This document shows, in pieces, positions 6,829 through 15,600 of a stretch of 43,389 bases of DNA. Source of the stretch: Prolixibacteraceae bacterium. GTDB taxonomy: Bacteria > Bacteroidota > Bacteroidia > Bacteroidales > Prolixibacteraceae. The notes under the pieces were generated by a model. The model did no database searches. It saw only the letters and a program-made list of their open reading frames with translations, and had not been told where the DNA came from. The stretch's first letter is position 1, and each line of letters starts with the position of its first letter. The stretch spans positions 1-43,389 of the forward strand of contig WTWZ01000013.1 of the NCBI GenBank assembly GCA_009773765.1, in the 5' to 3' direction. The translations under genes and the position numbers were made by a program.

Positions 6829-8049
6829 ATGAAGGGTTACAAATACATTCTGATCATTTCCATTCTTATTTTAATTGCAATTGCATTCAAATTTCTATTA
6901 AAAACTTCGGAAATAGGAAAAAAATTAAATGAAATTACGAAAGTAAACCACGCTAAAGAAATTCAGGAAGTATTAACCAAATTCGATAGTCTGCACAATT
7001 ATAATATCACACAATCGGGCGCAGTGGGGGGTGCGGTTGTTGTTACTTACAAGGCCCAGGTTGCACTAATTAAATGTTTTGGGGTAAAAAAGTCAGGCGA
7101 AAATAACCCTGTCGATGAAAATACAGTTTTCAGGCTGGCTTCTGTTTCAAAAGCAATAACCGGCGTGCTGGCCGGTATTCTTGATGAAGAAAAAGTTTTT
7201 AATCTTAATGACAAGGTTGTTGATTATCTGCCGGAATTCAAACTTAAATTTCCGGAAAATACCCGGAGTGTCAAAGTGAGTCATTTGTTGAGCCACACAT
7301 CGGGATTAACTCCCCATGCTTTCGATATGATGGTGGAAGATAAAGTTCCGCTGGAAAAAATTATACCCCGGCTGAACGAAGTTGAAATAGTTGGCCCCCC
7401 CGGATTAAATTATGCATACCAAAATGTGATGTTTAGTTTGTACGATCCGTTATTGAATGCAAAAACAAAAAAAACCTTCCAAAAAATTCTGAATGAAAAA
7501 ATTTTTGAACCTTTCGGAATGAAAAATGCCTCTTCTGATTTCGAATCGTTTGAAAAAAATGAAAACAAAGCTTTCCCGCATATAAAAAATGAAAAAGGTT
7601 TTGTTCCTGCTCGGTTGAATGACCGATATTACATAACTGTGCCAGCCGCCGGAATTAATGCAAGTATTTCAGACATGGGACAGTTTTTAATTGCCATTTC
7701 AGGTAAGGATGATGACCTTTTTTCGGAGCAAGCACGGGAAATTGTTTTTACCCCCCATGTAGAATCGGCGCTTAGACGAACATATTACCGAAACTGGGAC
7801 AAAATTGACTCAAAACATTATGCAATTGGCTGGAGGATATTAAATTACAAAAACCGTAAAGTTGCCCACCATAGTGGTTATGTATTGGGATATCAGGCTG
7901 AAATTGCGATTTGCGCTGAAGAAGAAGTTGGAATTGCCATTCTCTCCAATTCGCCAAACAGCTTTTTTTCAGAAGTTGTTCCTATTTTTCTGAATTTATT
8001 TTTTGAACATAAAAACAAACAGGGACAGGAAAAACAAATTACACTATGA
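6829..8049 (+). CDS. membrane-anchored serine hydrolase (beta-lactamase/class C PBP-like)
   Basis: This 406-residue protein starts at MKGYKYILIIS, an N-terminal hydrophobic anchor of about 22 residues. The frame is open upstream to 6664, but that part overlaps nth and has no membrane or signal logic. The catalytic SxxK motif is SVSK (near residue 105), the second motif is YQN within YAYQNVMF (near 200), and the third is HSG near 350. These three motifs define the class C beta-lactamase-related family of peptidases, esterases and amidases. True beta-lactamase activity is not implied. It overlaps the ABC-F start by 4 bases (ATGA), so the two genes are probably co-translated. The substrate is unknown. 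Confidence 0.88.
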   Translation: MKGYKYILIISILILIAIAFKFLLKTSEIGKKLNEITKVNHAKEIQEVLTKFDSLHNYNITQSGAVGGAVVVTYKAQVALIKCFGVKKSGENNPVDENTVFRLASVSKAITGVLAGILDEEKVFNLNDKVVDYLPEFKLKFPENTRSVKVSHLLSHTSGLTPHAFDMMVEDKVPLEKIIPRLNEVEIVGPPGLNYAYQNVMFSLYDPLLNAKTKKTFQKILNEKIFEPFGMKNASSDFESFEKNENKAFPHIKNEKGFVPARLNDRYYITVPAAGINASISDMGQFLIAISGKDDDLFSEQAREIVFTPHVESALRRTYYRNWDKIDSKHYAIGWRILNYKNRKVAHHSGYVLGYQAEIAICAEEEVGIAILSNSPNSFFSEVVPIFLNLFFEHKNKQGQEKQITL

Positions 8050-9932
8050 AACCTTTCATTCAGGGAGAAAACCTGTCGAAACGATGGGGAGAAACTATGC
8101 TTTTCGAAAATATTTCGTTCACCGTTTTCGAAGGCCGGAAAGTGGCATTGATTGCAAAGAACGGCGCTGGAAAATCAACGTTGCTCGATTTACTTGCAGG
8201 TAAAGAAACTCCCGATTCAGGAAAAATTACGGTTACCAACGACATGAAAATTGGTTATTTCGAACAAATTCCCAAACTCAACCCCGAGCACACAGTTTTG
8301 GAAGAAATTTTTGTTTCGGAAAATGAAAAGCTAAAAACAATAAAAGAATTTGAACTTGCAGTTACCAAAAATAACCAGGCAAAAATTGCCGAAATTTCCG
8401 CAAAAATGGATGAACTGGGCGCCTGGGAAATTGAAGTGGAAATCAAACAAATACTAACCGAACTCAAAATTGATCTGCACGACCAAAAAATTGCAGAACT
8501 TTCAGGAGGACAGAAAAAAAGGGTGGCACTGGCAAAAGTCCTGATTGACAAACCCGACCTTTTAATTTTAGACGAACCTACCAACCACCTGGATTTGGAA
8601 ATGATTGAATGGCTGGAAAATTACCTCGACAAAACAAAAGCTACACTTTTAATGGTTACCCACGACCGTTATTTTCTCGACCGTGTTTGTAATGAGATTA
8701 TTGAAATGGAAGACAGCCAGATTTACCGGTACATGGGCAATTACTCTTATTTTCTGGAAAAACGCGATGAACGGATTGAAATGCAGCAGGCATCGGTTAC
8801 AAAGGCAAAAAACCTGTTGCGCACCGAAATCGAATGGATGCGCCGGATGCCACAGGCCCGCAGCCACAAAGCAAAATACAGGGTAAATGCGTTTAGCGGA
8901 CTCAAAGAAAAAGCCTCACAAAAAATCAATACCGATAGCGTAAACCTGAATGTAAAATCGTCGCGCCTGGGCAAAAAAATGGTGGAACTCGAAAATGTTT
9001 CAAAATCATTTCCCGGCGTTAAATTGATTGAGAATTTCAGTTACAAATTTTCGCGGTTTGAGAAGGTGGGTATTATTGGCAAAAACGGGACAGGGAAAAC
9101 AACTTTTCTGAACCTGGTTACGCAAGCGTTGCAACCCGATTCGGGTATTATTGAAATTGGACAAACCATTAAATTCGGGTACTACCGGCAGGATGGTATT
9201 TCATTCGATAACCGCGAACGTGTGATTGAAGCGGTGGCCAAAATCGCTGAATTCATAACTTTCGAAGACGGCACAAAAATGAGCGCTGCACAAATGCTGA
9301 ACTTCTTTTTATTCCCGCCCGACACTCAATACAATTATATCGAAAAACTGAGCGGCGGCGAGCAGCGAAGACTTTACCTTTGCACAGTTTTAATGCAGAA
9401 CCCCAATTTCCTGATACTTGACGAACCGACCAACGATTTGGATATCATGACATTAAATGTACTTGAAGAATATTTAAAATCGTTTGCAGGATGCGTGATC
9501 ATAGTTTCGCACGACCGCTTTTTTATGGATAAAATTGTTGGCCATTTGTTTGTTTTCGAGGGTGAAGGAAAAATTACCGACTTCCCCGGAAACTACACTA
9601 TTTACCGGAACAAACAATTGCTTGATGAGGAGCTGGAGAAATCAAAGGCACAAATGGCCACAAGCAAAAAGGAACCGGAAAAACCTCAAATTAACGATGA
9701 TTCAATTGGTCCGCAAAAAAAGAAACTGACCTTTAACGAAAAACGGGAATTTGAAGCCATTGAGAATGAAATTAAACAATTGGAAGCTGAAAAAGAAATA
9801 CTGGAAATTGCCCTAAATTCAGGCATTTTACCGCATGATGAATTGTTCCGTCAATCGGAAAAACTGGTTTTGACAAAAGAACTGATTGATAAAAAGGAGA
9901 TTCGCTGGCTTGAGTTAAGCGAACTGCTTTAA
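8046..9932 (+). CDS. ABC-F family ATPase (Uup-like)
   Basis: This 628-residue cytoplasmic protein has two ABC ATPase domains and no transmembrane segments. Domain 1 (about residues 4-250) has Walker A GAGKST, signature LSGGQKKR and Walker B LLILDEPTNHLD. The interdomain arm is at about 250-310. Domain 2 (about 320-530) has GKNGTGKTT, LSGGEQRR and LILDEPTNDLD. A lysine/glutamate-rich C-terminal coiled coil follows (about 560-620), as in Uup. ABC-F proteins act on ribosomes, relieving stalls or giving antibiotic resistance; Uup-like members are housekeeping. The start overlaps the preceding hydrolase. A terminator hairpin follows at 9979-10000. Confidence 0.93.
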   Translation: MKPFIQGENLSKRWGETMLFENISFTVFEGRKVALIAKNGAGKSTLLDLLAGKETPDSGKITVTNDMKIGYFEQIPKLNPEHTVLEEIFVSENEKLKTIKEFELAVTKNNQAKIAEISAKMDELGAWEIEVEIKQILTELKIDLHDQKIAELSGGQKKRVALAKVLIDKPDLLILDEPTNHLDLEMIEWLENYLDKTKATLLMVTHDRYFLDRVCNEIIEMEDSQIYRYMGNYSYFLEKRDERIEMQQASVTKAKNLLRTEIEWMRRMPQARSHKAKYRVNAFSGLKEKASQKINTDSVNLNVKSSRLGKKMVELENVSKSFPGVKLIENFSYKFSRFEKVGIIGKNGTGKTTFLNLVTQALQPDSGIIEIGQTIKFGYYRQDGISFDNRERVIEAVAKIAEFITFEDGTKMSAAQMLNFFLFPPDTQYNYIEKLSGGEQRRLYLCTVLMQNPNFLILDEPTNDLDIMTLNVLEEYLKSFAGCVIIVSHDRFFMDKIVGHLFVFEGEGKITDFPGNYTIYRNKQLLDEELEKSKAQMATSKKEPEKPQINDDSIGPQKKKLTFNEKREFEAIENEIKQLEAEKEILEIALNSGILPHDELFRQSEKLVLTKELIDKKEIRWLELSELL

Positions 9933-10301: not shown

Positions 10302-10830
10302 TACAAAACAAAAATGGGAGCCATTCTGTTACGAATAGTTCCCATTCACTGGTTGCAACCGAAGTCGCTTTCAGCGCCAGGCTACTGTTATTCCGGCCGG
10401 CTTCATTTAATCTTTTCGGATTATTTGTAGCCCATAACTCTCTGGTTAAGCTTTCTACAGCAAAACCGTTAAGCTGTCCATTCGACTTTCCGGATGTCGT
10501 TATGGACGAAGTGTCGTTCAGTATCTTCCGCGTTTTCCTTTCGGTAACCGCTTCACATAATCAACTCTTCCTGGTTTTATCCATTACAAGCTGTGCAGTT
10601 GGGTAATTCAAATCGAAATTTTTATCACTCCTGCCTGATGACTCAATCTTGAAAGAACTTCTGGATTTTTCTCCCGATGATTGAATGAACTTTGACTATC
10701 CAGTAAGTCTTGTTCAAACTTCGGCTTTTCTTGTGTGCCATCCCGAAGGATGGAGAGAAATGTTCCGGTTTCAACTAAGTAACTTTCCCATTTCCACACT
10801 TTCAAAGCTGCCTTTTATCGCTCACCTGAT
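10302..10830 (-). ncRNA. candidate long structured non-coding RNA (about 0.53 kb)
   Basis: A near-perfect promoter (10835-10867) and an intrinsic terminator (10313-10346) bound this minus-strand stretch, and no ATG-started frame of meaningful length fills it. Stems read directly: a three-way junction (10733-10737 with 10795-10799, enclosing 10757-10762 with 10789-10794 and a CCATCC-TTCG-GGATGG hairpin at 10738-10753); a two-part stem at 10687-10715 (GAAC/GTTC around GACT/AGTC); a hairpin with a GAAA tetraloop at 10530-10551; a two-part stem at 10476-10507 (GTCCA/TGGAC around CGAC/GTCG); and a hairpin at 10449-10475. It does not show the conserved motifs of RNase P RNA, tmRNA or 6S RNA as I know them. 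Alternatives are a degenerate group II-intron-like RNA or a decayed gene: a 65-codon TTG-started frame lies at 10608-10805 and a stop-free stretch further on. RNA nature is inferred. Confidence 0.6.
10313..10346 (-). terminator. intrinsic terminator of the candidate RNA
   Basis: On the minus strand AATGGGA (10346-10340) pairs with TCCCATT (10319-10313). An inner ATTC/GAAT helix lies between them, and TTTGTTTTG follows directly after the stem. Confidence 0.75.
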
Positions 10831-10834
10831 GAAA

Positions 10835-10867
10835 CAAATATAGTGAAAAGAATAAGCAGTTGTCAAA
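10835..10867 (-). promoter_or_regulatory. promoter of the candidate RNA
   Basis: On the minus strand TTTG (10867-10864), a 21-base spacer and TATATTTG (10842-10835) match the Bacteroidota promoter consensus exactly. No start codon with a plausible gene follows, so the expected transcript is the structured RNA. Confidence 0.8.
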
Positions 10868-10909
10868 TTTTTTTCTTTGTTTAAATACACAATGTATCAA
10901 CATGAGTTA

Positions 10910-11431
10910 TTAACAATTGTTGAAAAGATCGTTATTAATCAGGGCTTTTAAAAGTGAAGTTGTGGATTTCCACTCGGAATCGGTAGCATGATATCCCCAC
11001 GAATGTGCAACTGTTGCCGGAGATTGCCACGGGAATTCTTCCTTTCTATTTCCAAGCGAATTGTCGCCCAGTTCTTTAAAATCAATATCCGGATCTTCTT
11101 CAATGGAAAGGCCCAATCGCGAATTTACCAAACAGTTGGGTTGCAACTCCCTGATTAACCCTTTTAGCTGAAGCAACTGCTCTTTTGTTACAACTGTTTT
11201 TGAATGGTGAATCCACATGTCGAACCAGAAAATTGAGATTTCACCATAATTGTTATCATTCCTGAGTTTTTCACCTTTCCAGTATCCTTCGGCGCCACTG
11301 TATATGCCCAAGTGGACAAACATTCCAAACCGCGAATCTGTAAACCATTTCGCCCGTTCGTTGGTTTGGGTTTGACTAAATGTTGAAATACAAATCAGAC
11401 TGAACAAAATGAGAACTGATTTTTTTTTCAT
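10910..11431 (-). pseudogene. GH29 alpha-L-fucosidase fragment, internally deleted and truncated
   Basis: This 173-codon frame begins with a signal peptide (MKKKSVLILFSLICISTFSQ) and the typical GH29 start (AKWFTDSRFGMFVHLGIYS). It then jumps after about residue 62 to a segment that belongs much later in the family (GEISIFWFDMW, the region of the nucleophile Asp; LIRELQPNCLVNSRLG; TVAHSWGYHATDSEWKS). It ends abruptly after LLKALINN. GH29 enzymes are usually 430-500 residues, so most of the barrel and the C-terminal part are missing. It cannot fold as an active fucosidase. It starts 11 bases after the nspC stop, on the same strand. The broken 3' end lies next to the candidate RNA promoter. Confidence 0.85.
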
Positions 11432-11442
11432 AACAGGGCTTT

Positions 11443-12579
11443 TTATGATAATCTTCCTTTAAAATCTTCGTAAGTGAATTTTCTTACAATTTGTAATACA
11501 TTGTTTTTTTTCCAAATGGCAATTGCCGGGTGATTTACGCCATTAAACATGGTTGTTTTAACCATGGTGTAATGAATCATATCAAGGAAAATTACTTTTT
11601 CACCCGTCTGCAATTCATGGTCAAATTCATAAACTTCCATAAAATCGCCGGCAAGGCAGCTTACCCCTCCCATCCGGTAAAGATGAATACTGTTTTCATT
11701 TGGTTCGGCGGCGCCAACAATTTTTGGGCGGTATGGCATTTCAAGCGTATCGGGCATGTGGGCGGTAAACGAAACATCAAGTATGGCTGTTTTTATGCCT
11801 TTATGTTGTACTATATCTTTTACCGTGGAAACCAAAACACCAGTTTCCCAGGCAATTGCGCTGCCCGGCTCAAGAATTACCTTAATATTATATTTCTGTT
11901 TGAAATTTTTTAATAATTGAACCAGATGATGGTGGTCATAGCCTTTTCTGGTCATTAAATGGCCGCCGCCCATATTCACCCATTTCAACTGGCGCAGATA
12001 TTTCCCGAATTTAATTTCCAGGTTTTCCAACACCTTTTCAAGGCTGTAAGAATCCGATTCACATAAAACATGAAAATGGATACCATCAATACCTTCGGGC
12101 AGTTCTTCAGGAAATTCGGCACTTCCCACTCCCAGCCGCGAACCGTCAGCAACTGGATTATACAAATCGGTGCCCACATCCGAAAATTCGGGATTAACCC
12201 GTATGCCACACGAAATGTGATGATCTGCTTTTTTTATTTCAGGATAAAATTTCTGAAACTGGTTGATTGAGTTAAAAACAATGTGGCTGCTGTAACTCAT
12301 CAACTCTTCAAATTCATTTTCGAAATAAACCGGGCAGTAAACGTGGGCGCGGGTTTTCATTTCATCAAAACAAAGCCGTGCTTCGAACAAAGAACTTGCA
12401 GTGGCGCCTTTTAAATATTTGCGAACCAAGGGGAAAGCGCCCCACATGGCAAAACCTTTAAAAGCCAGAATAATCTCAATGTCAGCTTCTTTCTGAACCC
12501 GGTTAATCAGTTCCAGATTTTTTCGCAATAGTTTTTCATCGAGAACAAATGCCGGAGAAGGTATTTTTGAGTAATCCAC
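11443..12579 (-). CDS. nspC: carboxynorspermidine/carboxyspermidine decarboxylase
   Basis: This 378-residue PLP enzyme is of the alanine-racemase-fold (type III) decarboxylase group. It removes the carboxyl group of carboxyspermidine to give spermidine. The PLP Lys lies in ILAFKGFAMW (near residue 41). Later motifs are the SSLFEARL substrate-side segment, the glycine-rich WVNMGGGHL (near 200), LEPGSAIAW (near 237) and the C-terminal GVSCLAGD with the conserved Cys (near 305). Length matches NspC. It follows the dehydrogenase gene by 5 bases, in the same operon, which supports the carboxyspermidine pathway. Confidence 0.93.
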   Translation of the reverse strand: MDYSKIPSPAFVLDEKLLRKNLELINRVQKEADIEIILAFKGFAMWGAFPLVRKYLKGATASSLFEARLCFDEMKTRAHVYCPVYFENEFEELMSYSSHIVFNSINQFQKFYPEIKKADHHISCGIRVNPEFSDVGTDLYNPVADGSRLGVGSAEFPEELPEGIDGIHFHVLCESDSYSLEKVLENLEIKFGKYLRQLKWVNMGGGHLMTRKGYDHHHLVQLLKNFKQKYNIKVILEPGSAIAWETGVLVSTVKDIVQHKGIKTAILDVSFTAHMPDTLEMPYRPKIVGAAEPNENSIHLYRMGGVSCLAGDFMEVYEFDHELQTGEKVIFLDMIHYTMVKTTMFNGVNHPAIAIWKKNNVLQIVRKFTYEDFKGRLS

Positions 12580-12584
12580 AATAA

Positions 12585-13778
12585 TTATACTTCCAAATCG
12601 ATATTAAAAACCTCGTTCCACGGTAATCCGTGCCCGCCAATTTTTTCCATAAACGGATCGGGATTAAATTCTTCAACATTGAAAACACCCTTTCCGATCC
12701 ATTTTCCGGTCAAAACCATCATTGCGCCTAACATTGCCGGAACACCGGTTGTGTAAGAGACACCCTGTGTCCCGGTTTCCTGGTATGCTAACTGGTGACT
12801 GCAATTGTTCCAAATGTAATAGGTTTGTTCTTTGCCATTTTTTATGCCTTTTATCCGGCAGCCAATCGAGGTTTCGCCAGTATAATTTTCTCCAAGATCT
12901 CCCGGATCAGGAAGAACAGCTTTTAAAAATTCGAGCGGAATAATATCTACTCCCTTGTATTTAACCGGATCGATTCTTGACATGCCAATATTCTGAATTA
13001 CACGAAGATGGGTAAGATATTCATCGCCAAAAGTCATCCAGAAACGGGCGCGTTTTAAGGTTGGATAATTTTTCACCAACGATTCCAATTCTTCGTGGTA
13101 CAAAACGTACGAATTTCGTTTTCCAATATTGGGGTAGGTAAGAGCAAGTTTTATTGCAAACGGTTCAATTTCAACCCACTGGCCATTCTCCCAGTATTTT
13201 CCCTTTTGCGTGATTTCGCGGATATTGATTTCTGGATTGAAATTGGTTGCAAAGGCCTTTCCATGGTCGCCACCATTACAGTCAACAATATCGAGATAAT
13301 GTATTTCGTCGAAATGATGTTTTGCGGCGTAAGCAGTGTAAATACTGGTAACTCCGGGGTCGAATCCGCAACCCAAAACAGCCATAATGCCCTTTTCTTT
13401 AAATCGTCCATGGTAAGCCCACTGCCAGCTGTATTCGAATTTTGCCACATCTTTTGGTTCGTAATTGGCTGTATCCAAATAATTAACGCCTGTTTCGAGA
13501 CAAGCATCCATAATCGGCAAATCCTGATACGGCAGGGCAACATTAATTACCAGCACAGGTTTAAACTGATTGATTAAAGCAACAACTTCCTGAACATTGT
13601 CGGCATCAACCTGTGCCGTTTTTATCCTTCCTTTACCAACCTCGCGCGCAATGGTTTCGCATTTCGAAACGGTCCGGCTGGCCAGCAAAATTTCAGAAAA
13701 CACATCCGGATTGTCGGCACATTTGCCTGCCACAACACGTCCCACACCACCGGCGCCAATAATGATAACTTTACTCAT
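12585..13778 (-). CDS. carboxyspermidine dehydrogenase (saccharopine dehydrogenase family)
   Basis: This 397-residue protein begins with a Rossmann NAD(P)-binding motif (VIIGAGGVGRVVAGKC, residues 4-19) and has the saccharopine-dehydrogenase family layout (NYLDTANYEP, AVLGCGFDPGVTSIY, ETSIGCRIKG, TTGVPAMLGAMMV). In the family context next to nspC this enzyme condenses putrescine with aspartate semialdehyde and reduces the product to carboxyspermidine. It is the first gene of the operon with nspC, 5 bases apart. Without the neighbour it could be read as a lysine-pathway saccharopine enzyme; the coupling to nspC makes the polyamine role much more likely. Confidence 0.9.
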   Translation of the reverse strand: MSKVIIIGAGGVGRVVAGKCADNPDVFSEILLASRTVSKCETIAREVGKGRIKTAQVDADNVQEVVALINQFKPVLVINVALPYQDLPIMDACLETGVNYLDTANYEPKDVAKFEYSWQWAYHGRFKEKGIMAVLGCGFDPGVTSIYTAYAAKHHFDEIHYLDIVDCNGGDHGKAFATNFNPEINIREITQKGKYWENGQWVEIEPFAIKLALTYPNIGKRNSYVLYHEELESLVKNYPTLKRARFWMTFGDEYLTHLRVIQNIGMSRIDPVKYKGVDIIPLEFLKAVLPDPGDLGENYTGETSIGCRIKGIKNGKEQTYYIWNNCSHQLAYQETGTQGVSYTTGVPAMLGAMMVLTGKWIGKGVFNVEEFNPDPFMEKIGGHGLPWNEVFNIDLEV

Positions 13779-14025: not shown

Positions 14026-14193
14026 GCCACAACTGGTTAACAAACTATGCAACCCCATACTAAAGAATTTTAATGTGATTCAGAAATTGTAAAGTACGTT
14101 CAATCCTTATTAAAAATTCCTTCATCAAAGTTTCAGAAAAAATAGTTTATTTTGTCGCCAATATTAATACCAATAATTTTTTATGATTACGTA

Positions 14194-15600
14194 ATGAAAA
14201 ATACCTATTTTGATTTGATCGAGCAAAGTTATTACTTTCCTCAGGAAGGCTTTGATTTAAGAGATGGAAGCCTCACATTTCACGGCATTTCCTTAAAATA
14301 TCTGATTAAAAAGTACGGAACACCATTCCGGTTTATTTACCTCCCGAAAATAGGCGATCAAATAAAAAAGGCGCGTAACCTGTTCAATAAGGCAATCAAA
14401 AAAAGCAATTATAAAGGCAATTATTACTATTGTTACTGTACAAAGTGCAACCACTTTTCGCATGTTATCAATGAAGCATTAAAGCAAAATGTTAATCTCG
14501 AAACTTCTTCGGCTTATGATATCGATTTGATTTTGAGTTTGTTTCGGGATAAAAAAATTGATAAAAACAGGGTTATTGTACACAATGGCTACAAAACCGA
14601 CGAATACCTTGCGAAAATTCTGAACCTGCAGGAAATTGGGTTTAAAAATAATATTGTCGTCCTCGACAGTATCAATGAATTAAAACGAATAGAAAAACTT
14701 GCCGGCGGCGTAAAGGTGAAAATCGGAATCCGTATGGCAATCAATGAGGAATCACAATCCTCATATTATACGTCGCGTTTGGGAATCAGGCACAACGATA
14801 TCCTGAAATTTTACTTAGAGAATATCAAGGATAAAGAAAATCTTGAATTTAAAATGCTCCACTTTTTCGTTGATTCAGGAATTAAGGACAGTTTATATTA
14901 CTGGGGAGAATTTCAGAAAGCGATGAAATTGTATGTGGATTTAAAAAAGCAATGCACTTCGCTTGATTCGTTTAATCTTGGTGGCGGTTTTCCTATCAGG
15001 AACCATCTTGGTTTTGAATACAATTACGAATACATGATTAACGAAATTGTAGCAGCCATTAAAGACGCCTGTGCTGTTGAAAAATTGAAGGAACCCGATA
15101 TTTACACTGAGTTTGGGAAATATACGGTTGGCGAAAGCGGGGCGATTATTTTTGAGGTTTTGGAACAAAAACAGCAAAACGACACTGAAAGCTGGTACAT
15201 TGTAAACAATAGTTTAATGAATACCATACCTGATGCGTGGTCGATTTTCGAAAAATTTATTTTACTGCCCATCAATAAATGGAACAACGAATACAAAAGG
15301 GTAAACATTGGTGGTATCAGTTGCGACCACTCCGATTACTACAACTCTGAAGATTTAAACCAGGAAGTGTTGCTCCCTGCTTATCCCGAAGAAGATGAGG
15401 AACCTTTGTACCTGGGATTTTTCCATACAGGCGCATATCAGGATGCAATCAGCGGGTATGGTGGAATAAAGCACTGCCTGATTCCATCGCCAAAACATGT
15501 AATTATCGACCGTGACGACAAAGGTAATATTGTTGATTACGTTTACCGGAACGAACAATCGGCGAAAGACATGTTTAAAATATTGGGTTACGAGAAGTAA
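14194..15600 (+). CDS. speA: arginine decarboxylase (short Bacteroidota type)
   Basis: This 468-residue type III PLP decarboxylase matches the compact arginine decarboxylases of Bacteroidota. It shows YYFPQEGF (near residue 10), the PLP Lys in YYYCYCTKCNHF (near 87), SAYDIDLI, YTSRLGIR, the glycine-rich LGGGFPIRN (near 265), TEFGKYTVGESG (near 308) and the C-terminal GAYQDAISGYGG. It converts arginine to agmatine, the entry to the spermidine route completed by the divergent dehydrogenase/NspC pair. The chosen ATG at 14194 gives MKNTYFDLIEQ; an ATG 14 codons earlier is possible but less typical. The degraded agmatinase start lies just upstream. Confidence 0.9.
   Translation: MKNTYFDLIEQSYYFPQEGFDLRDGSLTFHGISLKYLIKKYGTPFRFIYLPKIGDQIKKARNLFNKAIKKSNYKGNYYYCYCTKCNHFSHVINEALKQNVNLETSSAYDIDLILSLFRDKKIDKNRVIVHNGYKTDEYLAKILNLQEIGFKNNIVVLDSINELKRIEKLAGGVKVKIGIRMAINEESQSSYYTSRLGIRHNDILKFYLENIKDKENLEFKMLHFFVDSGIKDSLYYWGEFQKAMKLYVDLKKQCTSLDSFNLGGGFPIRNHLGFEYNYEYMINEIVAAIKDACAVEKLKEPDIYTEFGKYTVGESGAIIFEVLEQKQQNDTESWYIVNNSLMNTIPDAWSIFEKFILLPINKWNNEYKRVNIGGISCDHSDYYNSEDLNQEVLLPAYPEEDEEPLYLGFFHTGAYQDAISGYGGIKHCLIPSPKHVIIDRDDKGNIVDYVYRNEQSAKDMFKILGYEK

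Follow-up and report, generated by a model that had tools for sequence, protein, structure and literature searches.

To our knowledge, bacteria have few classes of large structured RNA, and several of these are still without a function. OLE RNA (ornate large extremophilic) of the Bacillota is described as a large non-coding RNA of about 600 nt with an intricate conserved fold, and the raiA motif RNA occurs in the Actinomycetota as well as in the Bacillota. In the Bacillota, the raiA motif RNA, or ModT, is reported as a widespread structured non-coding RNA (PMC11706538); GOLLD and ROOL are large ornate bacterial RNAs reported to form homo-oligomers (PMC12286853), and circularly permuted group II RNAs have been described at ~900 nt (PMC8637638). 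Here we describe a locus in a Prolixibacteraceae bacterium, within a window (the whole stretch of DNA that was analysed) of 43,389 nt. The minus strand very probably encodes a folded RNA of half a kilobase that has no protein product and is served by a promoter, a terminator, and a control site of its own; this RNA is found in many Bacteroidia and matches none of the known RNA families (Table 1). The existence of the RNA gene is near-certain; its function we infer.

Like OLE RNA, the predicted RNA is a large non-coding RNA with an intricate conserved fold, but it has no Rfam match and belongs to the Bacteroidia instead of the Gram-positive bacteria. It shares with the raiA motif RNA the character of a widespread structured non-coding RNA, but differs in its phylum, in having no Rfam match, and in its greater length. 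GOLLD and ROOL are likewise large, but the present RNA has no Rfam match, and no copy of it was found in the phage, plasmid, and viral-contig collections. Group II introns are also large multi-branched RNAs, and the 5' GUGAGC of the present RNA resembles the GUGYG start of such introns; in contrast, the present RNA has no Rfam match and no D5-like motif, is low-copy with its own promoter, and measures ~526 nt. Judged from sequence, it resembles OLE, GOLLD, and ROOL in manner, being large, stand-alone, covarying, and non-coding, which is a likeness in the way of working and not a kinship.

A search with Rfam 15 (4227 models), whose library includes OLE, GOLLD, ROOL, raiA, and group II models, gave no gathering-level match in the window. 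At the locus, two chance-level matches were found (E 1.7 and 4.9), the better being tfoR with 14.4 bits vs the 70 needed, and 20 homolog-bearing loci yielded only two overlapping sub-threshold Acido-Lenti-1 matches (L102, E 0.35 and 0.38), outside the RNA. The first-pass annotation had read the locus as a candidate undescribed long structured RNA with its own promoter and terminator, without the motifs of RNase P RNA, tmRNA, or 6S RNA, and the Rfam negatives and the covarying homologs support this reading. The bacterial RNase P RNA of this genome (RF00010 match) lies elsewhere (C112:79264-79673, 219 bits), ARAGORN reported no tmRNA in the window, and Rfam gave no tmRNA match. Rfam gave no 6S match in the window, and RF00013 was unmatched genome-wide; since it also missed a control genome from Bacteroides, this model has poor sensitivity in the present setting. 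No description of the present RNA was found in the open-licence PMC literature, and the terms "bacteroid" and "flavobacter" are absent from the main text of the non-coding RNA surveys PMC11109978 and PMC8632094. Because none of the tested classes matched, we regard the RNA as new at the level of the RNA class and not of mechanism, the large structured non-coding RNA as a broad kind being already known.

Table 1. Features of the predicted RNA gene and its upstream control region (window positions)
Feature	Position	Strand	Evidence
Predicted ~526-nt non-coding RNA, conserved 5' end AUCAGGUGAGC through terminator T-tract	10305..10830	-	Homologs and alignment, covariation, promoter and terminator positions
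-33 element TTTG	10864..10867	-	Sequence, homolog promoters
-7 element TATATTTG	10835..10842	-	Sequence, homolog promoters
5' core: P1 strand UCAGGU, loop strand GAGCGAUAAAA, P2 strand GGC	10809..10830	-	P1 partner 10377-10382; both-side P1 changes, 163 copies
Three-way junction with UUCG-capped arm	10733..10799	-	Helices 4, 5, 7: both-side changes in 7 pairs
Large internal domain containing several hairpins, closing pairs GAAGU/ACUUC; greatest length variation between families	10508..10722	-	Helices 8-22; core-to-core distances
Two stem-loops, 10507-10476 and 10475-10436	10436..10507	-	Helices 23-27: both-side changes in 11 pairs
3' core: P2 strand GCC, loop strand GGAAUAACAGUA, P1 strand GCCUGG	10377..10398	-	Alignment, P1 counts, profile
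3' hairpin with UUCG loop	10347..10376	-	Helices 31-32; also counted in 52 diverse homologs
Terminator hairpin AATGGGAACTATTC/GAATGGCTCCCATT and T-tract	10305..10346	-	14 pairs, 97.9% of cells paired; sequence also alike across families
Palindromic operator, TTTTCAACAATTGTTAATAA on the minus strand (consensus TTATYAACAATTGTTRATAA)	10907..10926	.	Homolog promoters, genus genomes; overlaps end of fucosidase-fragment ORF
Two more box-like repeats, TGTTGATAC and TGTGTATTT, between palindrome and promoter	10883..10902	-	Sequence; box arrays in homolog promoters

The promoter proposed at first, TTTG-N21-TATATTTG, is present with the exact N21 spacing, and the predicted RNA begins just downstream of it. 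The proposed intrinsic terminator likewise stands, its stem pairing 10346-10333 with 10326-10313, followed by TTTGTTTT at 10312-10305. Among 163 copies of the RNA, TTG-N18..23-TAnnTTTG lies upstream of the conserved 5' motif and ends 4-5 nt before it in 130; in 156, the 3' core leads into a T-rich tail. The GC content is 0.43 in the RNA vs 0.24 just upstream and 0.33 downstream.

No ATG frame of useful length had been seen in the first reading, and the longest sense frame, which starts with TTG, indeed has 65 codons. Each of the other aligned homologs (26/26) has at least one stop in the matching stretch, in L030 at the first codon only; of the 361 interior gap runs, 285 have a length not divisible by three, and Pfam gave no match for four translations of the RNA locus. 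A coding or decayed gene was rejected on these three grounds. The longest ORFs are somewhat longer than in shuffles on both the sense strand (mean 57.8 vs 47.7 codons) and the antisense strand (74.3 vs 57.1), which we attribute to composition, and a long ORF overlaps the RNA in 3 of 124 loci.

BLASTN (E<=0.001) found a match in 69 of 149 genomes, the own genome included, most of them single-copy, and in 33 of the 36 other genomes of the genus. Many of the distant matches were confined to the two ends of the query. When 40 loci, distant and nearer, were fetched, the end motifs lay on the same strand, 285-561 nt apart, in 37; the three exceptions were L051, at a contig edge, and L053 and L054, without the motif pair. 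We built a covariance model of the 3' 113 positions, in which the terminator stem supplies the only base pairs, and which is therefore driven by sequence. Counting weak matches without an extracted locus and the own genome each time, this model matched 96 of 393 genomes of the order (55 of 206 genera), 33 of 295 genomes in the class sample, and 9 of 395 in the phylum sample. The 5' core was found by motif in 24 of 28 order-level loci from the 3' model (L074-L101; missing in 4), in 7 of 9 class-level loci (missing in 2), and in 31 of 40 wider loci, which come largely from the same genomes as the order- and class-level loci. The exact 5' pattern occurs in 104 stretches of a GTDB-based collection, 92 of which have both cores; all are Bacteroidota by title among the 80 matches listed of the 104, except one labelled Chlorobiota. 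The named hosts include Draconibacterium, Maribellus, Sunxiuqinia, Mariniphaga, Tangfeifania, and Prolixibacter, and a Flavobacterium record (L153) is without the core pair and therefore probably a chance match. The viral contigs gave no match to the exact 5' pattern, and phages and plasmids gave no blastn match to the window copy. Of the genera sampled in the order, about one in four has homologs, as do parts of the class. The absence from most sampled genomes of the order, class, and phylum and from 3 of the 36 other genus genomes argues against an indispensable role.

Two copies of the RNA stand ~0.5-2.3 kb apart in seven loci (L038, L040, L048, L049, L068, L071, and L093), each copy preceded by a promoter-like sequence; the two in L049 are unequal, with 561 vs 467 nt between the cores.

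The 5' and 3' ends of the RNA are predicted to pair as P1 and to enclose a nearly invariant internal loop. In P1, UCAGGU (10829-10824) pairs with GCCUGG (10382-10377), 5' CAGGU facing 3' (A/G)CCUG. The 163 copies carry AGGU/CCUG (89), AAGU/CUUG (46), AGGU/UCUG (22), and other combinations in the remaining six copies, of which one has AGAU/UCUG and one is mismatched. Both strands of the internal loop between P1 and P2, GAGCGAUAAAAG and CA.AAUAACNGUA, are nearly invariant in the 163 copies, a set selected by the 5' and 3' motifs with one substitution allowed in each, so that the conservation of those motifs is inflated. P1, the loop, P2, the 3' hairpin, and the terminator are all kept in compact relatives of 292-337 nt, and the length variation is greatest in the middle of the RNA.

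The RNA has a minimum free energy of -151.4 kcal/mol (z = -3.4), and one of 100 shuffles folded equally well. Several elements drawn first from the single sequence are present again in the consensus of 27 homologs: the three-way junction, whose UUCG-capped arm is 10753-10748/10743-10738, and two double stems, one at 10717-10685 and one at 10507-10476. In contrast, the GNRA hairpin placed at 10530-10551 keeps three pairs (10545-10543/10538-10536) and loses the rest in this consensus, and the hairpin placed at 10449-10475 is recovered as a stem, but a larger one, 10475-10436. RNAalifold on the 27 full-length homologs gave 122 pairs, with both-side changes in 53, and a second consensus of the same homologs contains 143 pairs in 33 helices with 95.3% of cells paired. 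Both-side changes occur in 58 of the 143 pairs vs 27.7 +/- 2.6 in 500 shuffles; sliding the partners by one to three columns leaves at most 22 such pairs vs the 58 in register.

Since the second consensus was derived from the same alignment, a cross-clade test was made, in which 79 homologs were split into two tree clades (39 and 40), the structure was taken from one clade, and the pairs were counted in the other; for the null, the substitutions of each column were redistributed over the tree in 60 sets. The paired cells amounted to 80.9% (null 69.8 +/- 1.6) and 84.7% (null 74.1 +/- 1.4), and the double-change cells to 460 (null 125.5 +/- 20.5, maximum 175) and 421 (null 92.7 +/- 15.2, maximum 125). 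The structure of one clade predicts the pairs of the other far beyond the tree-aware null, in both directions. In a strict all-pairs test on the 79 sequences at E = 0.05, 6 pairs pass, 5 in the structure, 1 adjacent to it, and 0 elsewhere; with only 6 passing, the power for single pairs is low. The 3' part alone, in 52 diverse homologs, shows both-side changes in 23 of 32 pairs vs 14.4 +/- 1.8 in shuffles, and 87.9% of its cells are paired under the RNAalifold structure. Homologs are numerous, their pairs covary, and no reading frame is kept.

The comparison of homologs shows an RNA gene that is conserved, non-coding, and stand-alone and that carries control sequences of its own; its transcription and its action in trans we infer. 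Our preferred reading, which we hold to be rather probable, is that this stand-alone gene produces a large structured trans-acting RNA, either an RNP scaffold or an RNA-only assembly, at a level set by the protein of the operator. The predicted RNA would act in trans as a stable RNA. A protein would bind the conserved P1/P2 loop, with the RNA as the scaffold, or alternatively the RNA would assemble on its own, and the operator's protein would set its level. The variable internal domain would be peripheral, with the core and the 3' hairpins forming the functional part.

A large base-pairing regulatory RNA, whose exposed loops pair with target mRNAs and whose fold only presents and stabilises them, would likewise have its own promoter and terminator, no tie to a neighbour gene, and conserved A-rich loop strands. 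However, the length and the 33 helices seem to exceed what base pairing would need, the most conserved loop sits between two closed helices, and covarying helix makes up much of the length; we consider this explanation unlikely. We find it slightly less likely still that the RNA represents a new ribozyme class, in which the nearly invariant P1/P2 internal loop would be the active site and the peripheral helices would stabilise it. The large size, the multi-branched architecture, the tetraloop-capped stems, and the nearly invariant loop strands GAGCGAUAAAA and AAUAACNGUA would suit a catalyst, but a protein-binding core would equally fit such conservation, and neither a substrate nor a cleavage site is suggested.

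The strand of the nearest ORFs relative to the RNA was compared in 124 loci: upstream, 96 share its strand and 28 do not; downstream, 64 share it and 59 do not, and 1 locus has no downstream ORF. A cis-acting role, as a leader or riboswitch-like element for the gene that follows, would be consistent with the terminator hairpin at the RNA end and with the same-strand downstream ORF in 64 of the 123 loci having one, but the 64:59 orientation, the neighbours varying among lineages, and the convergent next gene in the window make it highly improbable. No conserved partner gene recurs across lineages at a fixed place in 78 loci, and any RNP partner for the preferred trans-acting RNA is therefore a guess. 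The largest neighbour clusters, namely saccharopine-dehydrogenase-like (13 loci), ABC-F (11), decarboxylase-like (11), and DnaG-like (10), appear to reflect lineage synteny.

A decayed mobile element, such as the degenerate group II intron that had been the main alternative at first, or a dead gene is hardly credible, for although second copies lie nearby in a few genomes and an apparently shortened fucosidase ORF stands directly upstream, there is no Rfam group II match, no D5-like motif (0 matches in L001 with a self-made pattern), and no match in viral contigs (exact 5' pattern) or in phages and plasmids (blastn), the copy number is low (mostly one per genome, sometimes two), the promoter and terminator are conserved, and compensatory change is strong across clades.

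Some features of the neighbourhood are worth recording. The DnaG-like ORF, which we take to be a DnaG-like primase, lies downstream and antisense in L052, L114, L119, L122, L125, L126, L128, L132, L133, and L136, and its midpoint is 1.0-2.1 kb from the RNA 3' core in 8 of these 10 loci, probably through lineage synteny. Upstream of the RNA in the window, a 173-aa ORF at 10910-11431 (-) matches only positions 200-305 of the 345 of Alpha_L_fucos; a longer related fucosidase ORF is found upstream of the RNA in several relatives, e.g. L061, and the ORF is apparently shortened in the present genome. The RNA operator overlaps its end. Pfam domains were found in the neighbours at 8046-9932 (+), 12585-13778 (-), 11443-12579 (-), and 14152-15600 (+). 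An ATPase gene is convergent to the RNA, and a saccharopine-dehydrogenase-like gene and decarboxylase-domain genes lie nearby; we presume that the ATPase is of the ABC-F type and that the dehydrogenase and decarboxylase neighbours resemble a polyamine pathway.

The palindrome TTATYAACAATTGTTRATAA upstream of the putative trans-acting RNA occurs with at most one mismatch in 101 of the 163 homolog promoters (62 exact and 39 with one mismatch), vs 0 of 163 after one mononucleotide shuffle of each promoter, where none fell below four mismatches. In 141 of the 163 copies, its best match begins 95-97 nt upstream of the 5' motif, and the window palindrome (10926-10907) differs from it at one position. 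With at most one mismatch, it is found in 32 of 37 genus genomes and at the RNA in 31; in G022 it stands only before mraZ, and the RNA there is cut by a contig edge. A second site precedes mraZ in the own genome and accompanies the second RNA copy in G019; in G024 and G030, the second site falls elsewhere. The palindrome is nearly unique in each genus genome.

In 20 of 21 genomes, the half-site GTTRATAACTC lies at about the same place upstream of mraZ, the gene that opens the division and cell-wall cluster, vs 1 occurrence in 800 kb of background (both strands). The full palindrome with one mismatch precedes mraZ in the own genome and in G022. In the own genome, this near-perfect palindrome (L255 1501-1520; G000 C42:81660-81679) is ~150 bp upstream of the listed mraZ ORF start. 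In addition, three-box arrays of GTTNATAA-like boxes occur in 70 of the 163 RNA promoters vs 3 in 1600 kb of background strand, for which two other genus genomes were used. The half-sites TTATYAACA are one or two positions off the DnaA box consensus TTATCCACA, which is an E. coli consensus, and DnaA is reported to act at the B. subtilis ftsL promoter (PMC8203912). For DnaA as a possible regulator, no supporting box array was found at the own dnaA locus, in 15 genomes by the three-box pattern, or near the GC-skew minimum of G034.

A position of the RNA at the replication origin was considered and rejected, the skew minimum of G034 being at ~2.235 Mb vs the RNA at 0.645 Mb. The skew of G008 is noisier, with sign changes at ~3.4-3.7, 4.5-4.8, and 5.1-5.3 Mb and the RNA at 4.678 Mb, and G008 alone would not exclude the origin.

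As a candidate regulator of the RNA, the most promising lead is a protein that also acts on the division operon. We offer, as a possible but doubtful extension, that the RNA is a new large bacterial class of a standing comparable to OLE and ROOL, and serves many Bacteroidia as an RNA machine, be it an RNP core, an RNA-only assembly, or a ribozyme, under a palindrome-plus-repeat operator that resembles a DnaA-box array; as the operator half-site is common to the mraZ division-operon promoter, the level of the RNA would then follow the cell cycle.

A conserved large RNA without a known job seems to have been overlooked here, and Rfam-based annotation can miss an RNA gene that is present in 33 of the 36 other genomes of a genus. 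The cultured hosts (Draconibacterium, Maribellus, Prolixibacter, and Sunxiuqinia), together with the compact versions of ~300 nt, would give a tractable entry to its function, and the operator, which points to a regulator, may provide another entry to what such RNAs do.
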